Shown here: one piece after another, positions 53,667-59,871 of the stretch
How positions within the stretch are numbered: the stretch's first letter is position 1
Layout of the letters: the number at the start of each line of letters is the position of its first letter
The notes under the pieces: generated by a model
Databases searched by the model: none
Told to the model about the DNA's origin: nothing
Seen by the model: the letters and a program-made list of their open reading frames with translations, nothing else
NCBI RefSeq assembly: GCF_004118855.1
Contig: NZ_PDKF01000002.1
Location: 186,001-250,000 of the forward strand
Source of the DNA: Arcobacter sp. CECT 8983
GTDB lineage: Bacteria; Campylobacterota; Campylobacteria; Campylobacterales; Arcobacteraceae
Direction: 5' to 3'
Length of the DNA stretch: 64,000 nt
Position numbers and translations under genes: made by a program

Positions 53667-54149
53667 ATGAAAGTTTTATTTTTAGTAGTTTTATTGATAA
53701 GTTCTTTGATTGCTTTACCCAATGAGTTTGATAGAGAAACTTACAATAAAGGGGAAAAGGTCTTTGATAATAAATGTAGTGAATGTCATGTAAAATCGAT
53801 GGATATTCAACTATTAATGAAAAACTTTATTGAAGAAGATAATAAACTCTTAAACCTAAAGGCTCCCACTGGAAATGAAATCTCTTTTAGACTTAAAAGT
53901 CAGATTGGAAGTAGGGATGATATAGAGTTTCAGCTTTTAGAAGCAATGGATTTTGTAAAAGACTATTTGTATAATCCAAATAAAGCTAAAACAATCTGTT
54001 TAGAAGGTGTGATAAAACATTTTGACACAATGCCAAGTATGAAAGGAAAAATTTCTGAAGAAGAAATAAAAGATGTAACTTTCTTTTTATATTTTTTAGA
54101 AGGCTTTAATGGTGTTAATAAATATTATCACAATGAAGAAGAGTTTTAA
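53667..54149 (+). CDS. Monohaem c-type cytochrome
   Basis: 160 residues with a signal peptide (1-17) and a CSECH haem site near 37-41. Met in FDTMPSMKGKISEEEI near 133-138 is a likely axial ligand. The long insertion between the haem site and the Met is unusual for a class I cytochrome. It should be periplasmic, passing electrons to an oxidase or reductase. AAAGGAGCTGTT precedes the ATG. The 3' end overlaps the convergent kinase gene by four bases. Confidence 0.85.
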   Translation: MKVLFLVVLLISSLIALPNEFDRETYNKGEKVFDNKCSECHVKSMDIQLLMKNFIEEDNKLLNLKAPTGNEISFRLKSQIGSRDDIEFQLLEAMDFVKDYLYNPNKAKTICLEGVIKHFDTMPSMKGKISEEEIKDVTFFLYFLEGFNGVNKYYHNEEEF

Positions 54150-55324
54150 GACTCCTCTTCTTTTTTATTTAATTTAAAAGTAAAACAACTTCCCTTATTT
54201 TCTTCTGATTCTACACTTACTTTGATATTATAAGTTCTACAAATATGATGAACAATATTTAGTCCAACACCAAAACCACCTTGCTCTTTTGTTCCTCTAT
54301 AATACCTTTTAAATATATCTTTTATTTTATCTTTTTTTATTCCAATACCCGAGTCTTGAACTTTTAAAATATTTCCTTTTAAAGATACATGTATTGTTCC
54401 TTCTATTTTATTGTATTTTATGGCATTGGAAATGATATTATTGAACATTCTTATAAAACTCTCTTTATCTATTTTATATATAGTTTTTTCTAGGTCTGAT
54501 GTTATTGTAATCTTTTTCTTTTGGGCAAAGGCTTCAAAATAATTTAGTTGTTCTTTGATTACTTTATCTACTTCTAAATTTGATATTAAATCAATCTTTT
54601 TTTTATCTTGTAAAAATAAATAAACTAAGTCTTTATAAATTTCTGAGATTCTTTTTGCACTTAAATTGATTCTTTGCATATTTTTTTCTGTAAGGGCTGC
54701 ATCTTTTCCAGTGGACATTAAAATAGCAGTAATAGGAGTATTTAACTCATGGGTTGTATCTTTTATAAAGTTATTTAATTTTCTTCTTTCATTTATGATA
54801 GGACTTATAAAAAGATTTGCAAGATAATATCCAACAAGAGAAATTAAAGTGAAAATTATCACAAAATAAAATATAATATCTTCCAATAATGTGTTAATTA
54901 TTTCCTTAAAATTACTTTCTTGGATTGCAATATGATAAACACCAAGATGACCTCTTGGAGTATTATCAACTAAAATATAGTCACCTTCAATTCTTTGCAT
55001 TCGTTTATTTACATCTATTTTAGTAGTAATATTTCCTGCTAGTTTTTCATGCTTTTTATTATATAAAGCATACTTATAATGAATAGTATTTGTTATCTTG
55101 GTAGTATCAATACTCAAGTTTGACATATCTGCATATATAATATTTGCGGAGATCTTAGAAGCAATACTTTGCATATTAGATGAAATTAAATCATAATAAA
55201 GTTTGTATTCAATTTTATAAAATTGCCAAAATATAATTGTTAGAAGAATAAAGGATGAACCTAAGTATAAACCTAAAAATCTAAAAAATGTACTCTTTTC
55301 ATTTCTTGTTAAATCTATAACCAA
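54146..55324 (-). CDS. Sensor histidine kinase facing the yceI/MNIO operon
   Basis: 392 residues. Two membrane helices (about 14-36 and 148-170) flank a periplasmic domain of about 110 residues without an obvious metal motif (no Cys; a few His and Met). H box TTHELNTPITAIL near 190, N box NNIISNAIKYN, G1 DSGIGIKKD and G2 GGFGVGLNIVHH. The start is uncertain: TTG at 55324 lies directly after GGAG, and other in-frame starts are late. It overlaps the regulator gene by 26 bases. By position it probably governs yceI and the peptide operon. Confidence 0.88.
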   Translation of the reverse strand: MVIDLTRNEKSTFFRFLGLYLGSSFILLTIIFWQFYKIEYKLYYDLISSNMQSIASKISANIIYADMSNLSIDTTKITNTIHYKYALYNKKHEKLAGNITTKIDVNKRMQRIEGDYILVDNTPRGHLGVYHIAIQESNFKEIINTLLEDIIFYFVIIFTLISLVGYYLANLFISPIINERRKLNNFIKDTTHELNTPITAILMSTGKDAALTEKNMQRINLSAKRISEIYKDLVYLFLQDKKKIDLISNLEVDKVIKEQLNYFEAFAQKKKITITSDLEKTIYKIDKESFIRMFNNIISNAIKYNKIEGTIHVSLKGNILKVQDSGIGIKKDKIKDIFKRYYRGTKEQGGFGVGLNIVHHICRTYNIKVSVESEENKGSCFTFKLNKKEEES

Positions 55325-55958
55325 CTCCTTTTATTGTTTCTATGTATTCATCTCCTATAATTTTTCTTATATTTTTTATATAAGTTCTTATAGTTGAAGA
55401 AGTAGGTGCAGACTCATATGACCAAATATTTGAAGATAATTCATCTTGTGAAACACATCTATTTGTATTTTTTAATAGATATTTTAACACTTGAGCTTCT
55501 TTTAGAGGTAACTTTGTTTTAATTCCTTCATAGTTTATATAATTTAATTTTGTATTAAAGCTGATATTCTCTCCAATATCTAATTCATCGGAATCAAGAT
55601 GAAGTAACCTTTTTATATTATTTATTCTAAGTTCAAGTTCTTTTAGTTCAAAAGGTTTTTTAAGATAATCATCTGCTCCTACATTAAACCCTTCTTCTAT
55701 ATCTTCTATTGAGTTTAGTGAGGTTATAAAAATAGCAGGAGTTGTAATAGATTCTTCCCTTAAACTTTTTAAGAAGTCAAAACCTGTGATATTTGGAACA
55801 TTTACATCAAGTATCAATAAATCAAAGTGTTCATCATACATAATTTCACTTGCTTTCATTCCATCATAGACACAAGTAACGTTATATCCTAAGCCTTGTA
55901 AAAACTCTTCAATTATTTCATTTAATATTAAATCATCTTCTAGTAGTAAAATTTTCAT
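55299..55958 (-). CDS. OmpR-type response regulator facing the yceI/MNIO operon
   Basis: 219 residues. Receiver: EDD at 7-9, phospho-Asp in LLILDVNVPNITG near 51, Lys in LKKPFE near 101. The winged helix has SSTIRTYIKNIRKIIG near 190-205. An extended -10 (TGC-TATACT on the minus strand, 55965-55973) lies just upstream. Between this gene and yceI are two CTACACA repeats 11 bases apart, the spacing of OmpR/PhoB-type sites, so control of both directions is likely. Confidence 0.92.
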   Translation of the reverse strand: MKILLLEDDLILNEIIEEFLQGLGYNVTCVYDGMKASEIMYDEHFDLLILDVNVPNITGFDFLKSLREESITTPAIFITSLNSIEDIEEGFNVGADDYLKKPFELKELELRINNIKRLLHLDSDELDIGENISFNTKLNYINYEGIKTKLPLKEAQVLKYLLKNTNRCVSQDELSSNIWSYESAPTSSTIRTYIKNIRKIIGDEYIETIKGVGYRFNKK

Positions 55959-55991: not shown

Positions 55992-56009
55992 CTACACAGG
56001 TGCTACACA
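55992..56009. promoter_or_regulatory. Tandem CTACACA repeats (candidate response-regulator site)
   Basis: CTACACA at 55992-55998 and 56003-56009, one helical turn apart, in the 107-base divergent region. They fall just upstream of the expected -35 position for yceI (TATATT at 56041-56046 as -10). Confidence 0.6.
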
Positions 56010-56065
56010 ATAACTTAACAAAACTTTATTAGAATTTCAGTATATTAAATAAAAAGGAGATTAAA

Positions 56066-56644
56066 ATGAAATCACTAACAAAAATCTTATTATCATCGGT
56101 ACTTGCAATGTCATTAGCAAATGCAGCACCTTATAAACTGGATAAAGTTCACTCTGATGTAGGCTTTTCAGTAAAGCATTTAATGATTACAAACGTAAAA
56201 GGTAACTTTACTAATTTTGAGGGAAAAATTGATTTTGACCAAGAGAATAAAACATTTAATGTTTTTGAAGGAACTATTAAAACAAATTCGATTAATACAG
56301 GAATTCTTAAAAGAGATAATCATTTAAGAAGTGATGATTTCTTTGCAGCTGATAAATACCCAGAAATGACATTTAAAATGAAATCTTACAAAAAAGATGG
56401 AGATGAAGGTTTAATGGTTGGTGATCTTACTATTAGAGGGGTAACAAAAGAAGTAGAACTAGAAGTTGAAGATATAGCAACAGTAAAAGATTTCGAAGGA
56501 AATAATAGAGTAGGATTTACTTTAGAAGGCAAAATAAATAGAATGGATTATGGACTTAAATGGAATAAAGCCTTAGAATTTGGTGGAGTTGCTGTTAGTG
56601 AAACTGTAAACATAATTGTAGAAATACAAGCAGTAGAAAAATAA
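56066..56644 (+). CDS. YceI-family periplasmic protein
   Basis: 192 residues. Signal peptide ending NAA (about 19-21); the YceI lipocalin-like barrel begins APYKLDKVHSDVGFSVKHL and contains NHLRSDDFFAADKYPEMTF near 92-110 and the closing EFGGVAVSETVNI. Family members bind isoprenoid or other amphipathic lipids; the link to metal peptides is not established. AAAAAGGAG precedes the ATG. It is 30 bases before the precursor gene and probably shares its transcript. Confidence 0.93.
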   Translation: MKSLTKILLSSVLAMSLANAAPYKLDKVHSDVGFSVKHLMITNVKGNFTNFEGKIDFDQENKTFNVFEGTIKTNSINTGILKRDNHLRSDDFFAADKYPEMTFKMKSYKKDGDEGLMVGDLTIRGVTKEVELEVEDIATVKDFEGNNRVGFTLEGKINRMDYGLKWNKALEFGGVAVSETVNIIVEIQAVEK

Positions 56645-56674
56645 AAAATATAAGTGACTAATAAAGGGGAAAAG

Positions 56675-57004
56675 ATGAAAAATAAATCAAAATTAAAATT
56701 AGCTGGTGTACTTTTAGGTGCAGCACTATCAAGTACAGGAGCATACGCAGGTAATGGTTCTTGCGGAGCTTCAAAATGTGGTGGTGAAGCTAAAAAGATG
56801 GAAAAGAAAGGTGCTTGTGGTTCTGGTAAATGTGGTTCTAAAGATGAGATGAAAGGAAACGCAGGTAAAAAAGCTTCTGGAGCTTGCGGTGCTGGTAAAT
56901 GTGGTGCAAACGACAAAGGTCAAGAAATGAAACAGCAAAACATGATGAAAAAAGAAGCTAAACAAAAAGCAAAAGGTGCTTGTGGCGCTGGAAAATGTGG
57001 ATGA
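56675..57004 (+). CDS. MNIO-type (HvfA/bufferin-like) peptide precursor with four CGxxKCG motifs
   Basis: 109 residues from ATG 56675, five bases after AAAGGGG; a GTG seven codons earlier is less likely. A Sec signal peptide ends near AYA-GN (23-27). The mature part carries four CG-x-x-KCG motifs at 30-36, 48-54, 71-77 and 103-109, one reading CGAS and three CG[SA]G before KCG, with the last at the extreme C-terminus. All eight cysteines lie in these motifs. The linkers are Lys/Glu/Met-rich. This matches the cysteine-rich, GKCG-bearing precursors of HvfABC and bufferin clusters, where cysteines are converted to copper-binding heterocycles. The two following genes are the matching enzymes. Modification and metal are inferred. 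Confidence 0.85.
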   Translation: MKNKSKLKLAGVLLGAALSSTGAYAGNGSCGASKCGGEAKKMEKKGACGSGKCGSKDEMKGNAGKKASGACGAGKCGANDKGQEMKQQNMMKKEAKQKAKGACGAGKCG

Positions 57005-57022
57005 AATGGTGAAGACAACTAG

Positions 57023-57844
57023 ATGATAAACTTAAAAGGGTGTGGCTTAGGCTTACGAAGTGACTTTTTATTAGATGTTAAAAGTAGTGATTTCCAACCA
57101 GATTGGTGGGAAGTTACTCCTGAAAACTGGATGCACATGCCAAAAGTTTATGAAAAAGCTTTTGAAGAAGCTGTATTTTCAAGACCAACAGTTGCACATG
57201 GTTTATCTTTGTCTATTGGATCTGTTGATGGATTAAATAAAAAATTCATCAAACAGATGAAAACTTTTCTAGATAGATATGAAATAGAGTATTATTCTGA
57301 ACATCTTTCTTTCTCTTCAATGAATGGTAAACAATCTTATGAACTATTGCCTGTTCCTATGACTAAAAAAATGGTTCAAATTATTAGTGATAGAGTAAAA
57401 GAAGTTGAGGATATTATTCAAAGAAACTTGATTCTTGAAAATGCAACATACTATTATGTTCCTTACGCAGAAATGCGAGAAGTTGATTTTATAAATGAGG
57501 TTTTAGAAAAATCTGGTGCTAAAATGCTTCTTGATGTAAATAATGTATTTGTAAACTCTGTAAACCACTCTTTTAAAGCAAGAAAATTTATTGATGAGAT
57601 AGATACAAGTAAAGTTGCCTATATGCATATGGCAGGTCATTATAATGATGAAGAACTAGGTTTAAAAATTGATTCTCATGGAATGCCTATTGCAAGTGGT
57701 GCTTGGAAACTCTTAGAATATACATTAAAGCAAACAAATGCTCCTGTTATGATAGAAAGAGATAATAATATTCCCCCATTAAGTGAGCTTGAAAAAGAGT
57801 ATATTCAAATGAGTGATATAGTTAGAAAGACAAGACATGGCTAA
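57023..57844 (+). CDS. DUF692 multinuclear non-haem iron oxidase (MNIO)
   Basis: 273 residues, TIM-barrel DUF692 enzyme related to MbnB and HvfB. Likely metal ligands and conserved acids: His59 in AHGLSLS, Glu93-His94 in SEHLSF, Glu139-Asn140, Asp171-Asn173-Asn174 in LDVNNV, His202 and His206 in HMAGH, Asp217-His219 in DSHG, and Glu245 in IERDNN. MNIOs use two or three irons and oxygen to remodel cysteine side chains of the partner peptide. The start follows GGTGAAGAC, 18 bases after the precursor stop; it overlaps the partner gene by eight bases. Confidence 0.93.
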   Translation: MINLKGCGLGLRSDFLLDVKSSDFQPDWWEVTPENWMHMPKVYEKAFEEAVFSRPTVAHGLSLSIGSVDGLNKKFIKQMKTFLDRYEIEYYSEHLSFSSMNGKQSYELLPVPMTKKMVQIISDRVKEVEDIIQRNLILENATYYYVPYAEMREVDFINEVLEKSGAKMLLDVNNVFVNSVNHSFKARKFIDEIDTSKVAYMHMAGHYNDEELGLKIDSHGMPIASGAWKLLEYTLKQTNAPVMIERDNNIPPLSELEKEYIQMSDIVRKTRHG

Positions 57845-58529
57845 GAAGATACTAGAAAAAGATATACAAGAAAGGTTTTTAGATAATCTTTTAACCCAAA
57901 CTGATGAGGTAGAAAACTCTTCAGTAGCTGTTTATCAAAAACTTGTGTATATGAGATATCATGAAGTTATAAAAAACTCTTTTCCTCTTTTTATGGATAT
58001 TGTAGATGATGATACTTTGCAAACTTCAATAAAAGCTTTTATGAAGAATGCCCCTGAAACACCATATGTGTGGAAAATGGCAAATGACTATAGAAAGTTT
58101 GTAAAGAAAAACAAACTTTTTGATGATAAAAAATATATTTATGAATTGCTTTATTATGATTGGATAGAAATAGAACTTTATATGAAAGAGTATAAAGAGA
58201 AAAAACAAAAGAAATTTTCTTATAAAAATAGTTATAAATTAAGTAAAAGTGCTAGAATCAAAAGATTTAAATATGACTTGATAAATAAAGATATTACTTC
58301 AAAAAGAGAAAACTTTTTAGTAATATATTATGATTTTCAAACAGATGATATTATTTATAGAGAAATAAACCCTATCATCTACTACTTGCTAAAAAGTCTA
58401 AATAAAAAGCAGACTATAGGAAACTCTTTAAAGAAACTATGTAAGCAAAATAATATAGATTTTAAAGAAGCAAAAGAGGCGTTAAAAGAGCCTCTTTTAG
58501 AGCTTTATAGAAATAGAGTATTTATTTAA
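57837..58529 (+). CDS. DUF2063-type partner protein of the MNIO
   Basis: 230 residues. The N-terminal region has the DUF2063 pattern: VAVYQKLVYMRYHEVIKNSFPLF near 31-53, then YVWKMANDYRKFVKKN and a YDW..IELYM stretch. In HvfC/MbnC-like partners this domain presents the precursor to the oxidase and forms a heterodimer with it. The C-terminal 100 residues are lysine-rich with no recognised fold. Translationally coupled to the MNIO; its 3' end overlaps the convergent MATE gene by eight bases. No DoxX gene, frequent in related clusters, follows. Confidence 0.88.
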   Translation: MAKKILEKDIQERFLDNLLTQTDEVENSSVAVYQKLVYMRYHEVIKNSFPLFMDIVDDDTLQTSIKAFMKNAPETPYVWKMANDYRKFVKKNKLFDDKKYIYELLYYDWIEIELYMKEYKEKKQKKFSYKNSYKLSKSARIKRFKYDLINKDITSKRENFLVIYYDFQTDDIIYREINPIIYYLLKSLNKKQTIGNSLKKLCKQNNIDFKEAKEALKEPLLELYRNRVFI

Positions 58530-59871
58530 TACAAACCTCTTTTAGTAATCTTTGAGTATAAATATATGCAAAAATTGCAGCACTATAAATCATAATTAAT
58601 ACCCCCATCCAAAGATATATATAATCTAAAGCAAACAAAATAACAAGAACATATGCAATAGCAAATTTTGCAATTATTTGTCGATATAATGCAATATATA
58701 AAATCATTTTAGGTCTTTTTATTCCTTGTAGTGTTGATACACAAATAAATAAGATTACATATGCATAGAAAATCAATACTTCAACTACTAAATAATCATA
58801 TCCAAAGCCAATTACAATAGGATCCGAATCAAACTGTGAAATAATAGTTTTTCCAAAAATATATAAAAAGACTATTCCAAATGTAGCAATTATAAAACCA
58901 TATTTTAGTGCTTTGTTAACTGTTTCTTGAACTCTATCATATCTTCTAGCACCAAAATTATTTGATACTAATGATAATACTGCGGAACTAAGCCCAAGTG
59001 CTGGTAAAAGCATAATTTGTTCAACTCTAAAGCCTATTCCATATCCTGCAACGGCTTTTACTCCATAAAGTGAAACAAAATACATCAAAATAAGTGAACC
59101 AATAGACATAATAAGCATATTCATTGAAGATGGAATCCCTTGATTAATCATCTCTTTATATATTTTTTTATGGGGGAAAAAGTAGCTTATTTTTTCAAAA
59201 TGTACAAGTTTAGTATTCATAACCTTTCTAAGTAGATAAAGAGCATTTATAAGTTGTATTAAAACTGTTGAAAGAGCAATACCTTTTATTCCCATTGCAG
59301 GAATAAACAAAAATCCATAAATAAATAATGGGTTTAATACTAAGTTTGCAAAAAATCCAAAAATAAGAGTATTTCTATAAGATTTTGTATCTCCCCTTGA
59401 TACAAGTATTGCATTTAAAGCAAAGTTTGTCATAAAGAAGATTGTTCCAGCAAGAATTATATTTATATAATCTAAAGCCATATTCATATATTCTCCACTA
59501 GCTCCTAAAAGCGTAAATAAATATGGAGATATTAAAAAACCTATAAAAGTTAAAGCAAGAGCAATAAGCTGCATAAAGAAAATACCTTTATGGGCATAAA
59601 GTGAAGCCAAAAATCTTTTTGACCTTCCACTTGCATTTCCTATTAAAGCAGTGATTGCAGCAGAAAACCCATATCCTAGTCCAATTATTGTGAAAAATAT
59701 CATAAATGAAAGTGAAAGTGCAGAGATAGCTTGAGTTGAAATAAGTCCAGCATAGAAGGTATCTACTACATTATACATTGTATTAAAAAACATACCTGTA
59801 CTTGCAGGAATAGTAATTTGTTTTAATAGAGTTGGTATATCATTATTAATTAAGTGTGAGTTTTGTTTCAA
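58522..59871 (-). CDS. MATE-family multidrug/Na+ antiporter
   Basis: 449 residues with 12 predicted helices. The MATE fold is seen as two repeats: IPASTGMFFNTMYNVVDTFYAG near 21-42 and NQGIPSSMNMLIMSIGSLI near 242-260, plus GVKAVAGYGIGFRVEQIMLLP. It exports drugs or metabolites in exchange for Na+ or H+. TTG start after AGGC. It is convergent on the MNIO operon and need not be functionally linked; export of a modified peptide by it is unlikely because the precursor has its own Sec signal. Confidence 0.92.
   Translation of the reverse strand: MKQNSHLINNDIPTLLKQITIPASTGMFFNTMYNVVDTFYAGLISTQAISALSLSFMIFFTIIGLGYGFSAAITALIGNASGRSKRFLASLYAHKGIFFMQLIALALTFIGFLISPYLFTLLGASGEYMNMALDYINIILAGTIFFMTNFALNAILVSRGDTKSYRNTLIFGFFANLVLNPLFIYGFLFIPAMGIKGIALSTVLIQLINALYLLRKVMNTKLVHFEKISYFFPHKKIYKEMINQGIPSSMNMLIMSIGSLILMYFVSLYGVKAVAGYGIGFRVEQIMLLPALGLSSAVLSLVSNNFGARRYDRVQETVNKALKYGFIIATFGIVFLYIFGKTIISQFDSDPIVIGFGYDYLVVEVLIFYAYVILFICVSTLQGIKRPKMILYIALYRQIIAKFAIAYVLVILFALDYIYLWMGVLIMIYSAAIFAYIYTQRLLKEVCIK

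Follow-up and report, generated by a model that had tools for sequence, protein, structure and literature searches.

The window, a stretch of 64,000 nucleotides from the genome of the marine bacterium Arcobacter sp. CECT 8983, carries a four-gene operon that very probably encodes a copper-induced 5-thiooxazole captophorin (an oxazolin/HvfA-like RiPP) belonging to a Crd-type copper regulon. All four genes are located on the + strand and form one tight unit (56066–58529), encoding in this order a YceI-family lipocalin-like protein (56066–56644), a captophorin/HvfA-family precursor of 109 residues (56675–57004), an HvfB-like MNIO (DUF692) peptide oxidase (57023–57844) and a DUF2063 (HvfC/PME-type 1) partner protein (57837–58529). 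The gaps between the genes are 30, 18 and -8 bases, the end of the MNIO gene overlapping the start of the DUF2063 gene by 8 bp. This order and these distances had been given in a preliminary description of the same DNA, and both the ORF calls and the Pfam matches agree with them. All the Pfam families concerned scored above cut-off, i.e. YceI (PF04264, 153.8 bits) in the first protein, which also has a Sec signal, MbnB_TglH_ChrH (PF05114, 287.1 bits) in the MNIO, and both DUF2063 (PF09836, 34.9 bits) and NGO1945_C (PF22106, 32.6 bits) in the partner, whose earlier recognition as a DUF2063 protein is thereby confirmed. Gene content, conservation across genera, synteny and a common promoter repeat are described below, and from these we infer the product, its metal binding, its regulation and the role of YceI.

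The precursor gene has an ATG start behind AAAGGGG. Its product begins with a 25-residue Sec signal peptide, MKNKSKLKLAGVLLGAALSSTGAYA (56675–56749, + strand), which as read from the sequence has a KxK n-region and a hydrophobic core and ends in AYA, with G26 as the start of the mature peptide. All eight cysteines are situated in four CG[AS][GS]KCG motifs, namely CGASKCG (56762–56782), CGSGKCG (56816–56836) and two copies of CGAGKCG (56885–56905 and, at the C-terminus, 56981–57001). The precursor passes the NCBIfam HvfA-family domain model NF050137 (21.8 bits, cut-off 19.5), in agreement with the cysteine-rich, Sec-exported precursor with CGxxKCG motifs that had been noticed earlier. It falls below the HvfA equivalog NF050188 (14.2 bits, cut-off 95), and a Pfam search, DUF2282 included, gave no match. 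A search of the remainder of the genome for another captophorin precursor or MNIO found none. In the window motifs, A or S instead of K precedes the first Cys of each pair, and the Glu is missing. In substrate scans, FonBC accepted Ala at the Lys position (3) and, at the Glu position (1), most residues, but required a small residue after the Cys (PMC13097082). Given these tolerances, both cysteines of CGAGKCG could plausibly be modified.

The best NCBIfam models for the MNIO and its partner are HvfB (NF003818, 307 bits) and HvfC (NF050145, 83.7 bits), respectively. Both scores are below the equivalog cut-offs (360 and 142 bits), so the two proteins are to be regarded as relatives of HvfB and HvfC rather than as certified members of these families; a Haemophilus-type hvf operon sensu stricto was rejected on these scores and on the absence of DoxX from the operon. 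The closest solved structure to the window MNIO is 3BWW (E 2e-47), an MNIO with a diiron cluster and a close relative of HvfB (PMC13419390). Residues H59, H94, E139, D171, N174, H202, D217, H219 and E245 of the window MNIO are invariant in an alignment of Campylobacterota MNIOs (50/50), which bears out the DUF692 ligand residues pointed out earlier. Three of these, N174, D217 and H219, correspond to HvfB N175, D242 and H244 when matched through the 3BWW numbering, and loss of any of the latter residues abolishes HvfB activity (PMC13419390).

PF05114 was found in 37 of the 104 genomes of the family and in 28 of the 397 genomes drawn from the phylum, two of these 28 being below cut-off. Weak matches of 18–19 bits over about 100 residues of 274-residue frames (L053 and L054, in genomes G256 and G284) are probably to other TIM-barrel proteins. 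A small ORF with a signal peptide adjoins the MNIO gene in all 49 full-length Campylobacterota loci, and in 48 of them the encoded precursor has at least four cysteines, mostly in CGAGKCG motifs. Related genomes carrying the oxidase without any such precursor would have spoken against the preliminary description; as a precursor lies beside every full-length MNIO, this objection falls away. The one precursor with a single Cys (...GKHATSKCG; L095, in G418) is encoded about 0.2 kb upstream of an intact MNIO gene and has kept its signal peptide; it is rich in Met and Lys and is either degenerate or a single-site substrate. The precursors of L086 and L087 (family f11), of 128 residues with at most 10 Cys, 14–19 Met and mostly single KCG motifs, represent the same peptide in a form richer in Met.

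Family tree analysis of the MNIO proteins by maximum likelihood assigns the window protein to a clade of 31 Arcobacteraceae loci (support 100/100). The search for the gene order that had been suggested earlier was carried out, and YceI comes first in 21 loci of this clade; no locus of the clade has DoxX. Outside the clade, a DoxX-like gene is present in 12 of the 19 loci (one representative was tested with the NCBIfam HvfX model, 131.7 vs. 80 bits) and YceI in none. The order YceI–precursor–MNIO–DUF2063 is found in 20 other loci from six genera, with varying intergenic lengths (in one of them, L076, the DUF2063 position lies beyond the contig), which rules out that YceI stands there by chance. 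BLAST searches of the clade loci with 12 HvfX proteins and the genome's own DoxX found no DoxX/HvfX, so that a gene overlooked in annotation can be discarded too. The only DoxX of the window genome is encoded on another contig, and the earlier observation that YceI leads an operon without DoxX is thus correct. In 68 named records, most of them non-Campylobacterota and with flanks of at most 8 kb, no YceI was found near an MNIO outside Arcobacteraceae-type loci; among these loci YceI is an Arcobacteraceae trait. The operon-encoded YceI proteins form a group of their own, with 62–90% identity to the window YceI; for the genome's second full-length YceI this value is 45%. PDB relatives of the window YceI include 5w37 (E 4e-43).

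None of the nine Poseidonibacter-type loci (g19) has YceI, nor does one locus of genus g1 (L065). All of these are nested inside the clade, making an early gain followed by loss the simplest reading, and their existence implies that YceI is dispensable for the pathway. The retention of the pathway after this loss, and the fact that YceI proteins are common (four in the window genome), are what would be expected if YceI were a passenger on a copper promoter, unrelated to the peptide. We give this explanation a substantial, though less than even, chance, as YceI has stayed beside the precursor in six genera despite rearrangement upstream. The role that we favour for YceI, by analogy with the lipocalin BcnA (PMC9113575), is a protective one, in which it would keep copper from driving the peroxidation of membrane lipids or quinones; it is the weakest step of our explanation, and the passenger role is equally likely. 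BcnA/LcoA, a Burkholderia YceI lipocalin of lipid-peroxyl detoxification, is likewise a periplasmic YceI-family protein (PMC9113575), but is linked to cytochrome b561, whereas the window YceI is linked to a putative copper-binding RiPP operon. More tentatively, YceI may have replaced the membrane protein HvfX/DoxX as a captophorin accessory acting on or with the peptide, for example as a copper-protected lipid or quinone carrier, with the pathway being an arm of the CrdRS efflux regulon; this combination we consider rather doubtful. The mutually exclusive swap of YceI and DoxX (HvfX) provides a handle on the function of the accessory protein.

A two-component system is encoded divergently from the operon, consisting of a CrdR-like OmpR-family response regulator (55299–55958, - strand; Pfam Response_reg and Trans_reg_C) and a Crd-type sensor histidine kinase (54146–55324, - strand). 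The kinase has a clear HATPase_c domain (83.4 bits) and a HisKA match just under cut-off (26.0 vs. 26.9 bits), and is kept beside the operon in genus g1. The g1 orthologues of the regulator form a single clade in the regulator tree (support 100/99). Its closest paralogue in the genome (56%; G000:C2:153607-154254) adjoins a crdAB-czcBA-type operon, which is intact and lies on the same contig at a distance of about 80 kb (L183, C2:153.6-161.3 kb); the gene order in this region (G000:C2:150000-164000) is regulator (- strand), kinase, YtkA, TolC-like, CzcB, CzcA. The arrangement of an OmpR-family regulator and a kinase beside CrdA-CrdB-CzcB-CzcA genes thus holds for the paralogous pair of this genome as well as for related genera. 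In the tree the regulators group cleanly by neighbourhood, while the branching among the groups is not resolved, so that a duplication of one CrdRS is what we infer rather than what the tree tells.

CrdA(YtkA)/CrdB/CzcB/CzcA-type genes are located within about 8 kb of the operon in 19 of the 31 clade loci, and also in one locus outside the clade (L035). In 13 clade loci (g2, g13, g16, g5 and g19) a gene for a CusA/CzcA-family pump lies directly upstream on the same strand, preceded, where the contig reaches, by genes for a YtkA-like protein, a TolC-like protein and a CzcB-like adaptor, in that order; in g15 and several g1 loci, the efflux genes are found beyond the divergent regulator genes. 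The YtkA-like protein matches PDB entry 9ll2, a 'copper resistance protein' (E 2e-15). In H. pylori, CrdRS activates crdAB-czcBA in response to copper (PMC4557348, PMC9182242). The best reading of the divergent two-component system and the shared operator-like repeat is that the window operon would belong to a Crd-type copper-resistance regulon.

This repeat, CTACACA-N4-CTACACA-N4-CTTAACA (55992–56020, + strand), lies ahead of YceI in the divergent intergenic region of 107 bp. Sites of the OmpR family typically have such an 11-bp period, and the repeat never arises in shuffles of the window (0 expected). Across 15 aligned g1 promoters the best-kept stretch is made up of the second repeat and the ACT--ACA behind it, which are present in all 15. 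The pattern CYACACA-N4-CYACACA has a single exact occurrence in the 2.74-Mb genome, at the window operon, and occurs exactly once in each of four sister genomes, by position at the captophorin operon. The genome of Poseidonibacter lekithochrous (G092) has two exact copies, one before crdA and one before the precursor gene. Two one-mismatch matches in the window genome lack a copper gene downstream and were set aside as looking like chance. A matrix derived from g1 promoters alone (hand-aligned 18-mers) has its best match 30–150 bp ahead of the gene for the precursor, YceI or CrdA in 12 of the 16 clade loci from other genera, which had not been used for training (expected about 0.9%), and at the same positions in 6 of the 19 loci outside the clade (expected about 0.5%); the nominal p values (3e-22 and 3e-10, respectively) are overstated, since the loci are related and not independent. 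In the crdA promoter of the window genome itself, the repeat is present only weakly (7.5 bits, ranking second in 14 kb). Two specialised regulator pairs in g1 would be consistent with this, but it also makes shared control less convincing for this genome. A possible -10 hexamer, TAGAAT (56030–56035, + strand), can be read from the sequence, relative to which the second CTACACA lies about where a -35 would be; the -10 region reads ATTA-AAT in most g1 promoters. Scans of the region for consensus sigma-70 promoters and terminators gave nothing above shuffles.

We propose that copper in the envelope would be sensed by the kinase and signalled to the CrdR-like regulator, which would bind the CTACACA repeat and turn the operon on. 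The precursor would be made in the cytoplasm and presented by the DUF2063 partner to the iron enzyme MNIO, which would convert the CGxxKCG cysteines into 5-thiooxazoles by oxidation (-4 Da each, at most -32 Da for all eight). The modified chain would then leave by the Sec pathway and bind Cu(I) in the periplasm, where this sequestration would operate alongside CrdA and the Czc-type pump; in related genera the regulon would also include CrdA-CrdB-CzcB-CzcA efflux. The shared transcript would also yield YceI, which would shield envelope lipids or quinones under high copper. The first and last steps of the main route, i.e. the copper signal and the sequestration of Cu(I), are suggested by homology and context only. 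The preliminary description had proposed that the operon is of the MNIO RiPP type and gives rise to a periplasmic peptide that binds copper, and this reading fits the evidence gathered here, with two refinements: the chemistry now to be expected is 5-thiooxazole rather than oxazolone/thioamide (PMC13097082, PMC13419390), and the operon is assigned to a Crd-type copper-resistance regulon, a context that had escaped notice there.

It is unlikely that the product serves mainly against another stress or metal (NO, gold or silver, zinc, oxidative stress) and that copper is not the natural signal. A response to NO has also been reported for CrdRS of H. pylori (PMC9927306), the CzcA-type pump family exports other metals too, and a related Legionella operon responds to gold as well as copper (PMC5413113), but the CrdA-type protein is similar to one for copper resistance, and Cu is bound by those 5-thiooxazole peptides that have been tested (PMC13097082). 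Use of the same chemistry for copper acquisition by a methanobactin-like chalkophore, instead of detoxification, seems quite improbable to us: MNIO chemistry is indeed common to methanobactin, and Microbulbifer bulbicupramide has been discussed as a chalkophore (PMC12538549), but the neighbourhood and the common repeat point to copper efflux and CrdRS, and no TonB receptor or importer is among the genes identified around the loci, where part of the neighbours are annotated. A decayed operon, or a peptide that is never modified and acts as a plain Cys-rich metal binder, is hardly credible, for although modification is a prediction from the genes, none of the metal-ligand positions of the MNIO varies, and the four genes are all intact and have been conserved across genera.

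The 5-thiooxazole captophorin operon proposed here is of an already known kind of captophorin/oxazolin RiPP cluster. The hvfABCX operon of nontypeable H. influenzae, whose product contains Cu-binding 5-thiooxazoles, has the same signal-peptide precursor with xxxCG repeats, MNIO, DUF2063 protein and gene order (PMC13419390). The window differs in having CGAGKCG pairs where Haemophilus has AEGKCGEGKCG, and in the absence of the DoxX-like HvfX, the YceI gene in first position and the divergent CrdRS-like system. The captophorins fontiphorin and gonophorin, as well as bulbicupramide, share the core of RiPP, MNIO and PME1/DUF2063 protein (PMC13097082, PMC12538549), and the bulbicupramide cluster mmrA-C likewise lacks DoxX (PMC12538549). 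These systems are, unlike the window operon, from Pseudomonadota and have EGKCG repeats, and the main text of these papers mentions no YceI, two-component or efflux genes (PMC13097082, PMC12538549). The bufferins (Buf1/DUF2282 and Buf2) are also Sec-exported, associated with an MNIO and a DUF2063 protein, and related to copper stress (PMC12452194), but their precursor families differ and Buf1 clusters have a sigma factor/NrsF instead of a two-component system. A bufferin identity was rejected, as the precursor has no DUF2282 and the maturase model scores 245.8 bits against 307 for HvfB; nor do eight Cys in CGxxKCG pairs fit the 6/12-Cys domain of Buf2.

The copper-sensing system and gene order of H. 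pylori CrdRS/CrdAB-CzcBA recur in the window genome and adjoin the operon in related genera; we know of no MNIO peptide described in that system. The published account of the H. pylori Crd system likewise describes none (PMC4557348). In the literature searched, with subscription papers and supplements outside its scope, no text joins YceI with DUF692, DUF2063 or MNIO, or MNIO with Campylobacterota. As far as this literature goes, novelty lies in the YceI variant, in the mutual exclusion of YceI and HvfX and, for Campylobacterota, in the link to a Crd-type copper regulon. These features bear on what thiooxazole peptides do in the cell and how they are regulated; the clusters described so far are mostly from Pseudomonadota. 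As the predicted operator ties the peptide to a copper-efflux regulon, copper detoxification becomes directly testable.

Two further genes flank the region. A small gene for a mono-haem cytochrome c-like protein (53667–54149, + strand) is convergent with the kinase gene and kept only in the closest relatives (L033, L036 and L075). At the other side, a MATE efflux gene (58522–59871, - strand) runs tail to tail into the DUF2063 gene, the two sharing their last 8 bases; a MATE gene is found near the operon in 26 loci, in some of which inserts separate the two.
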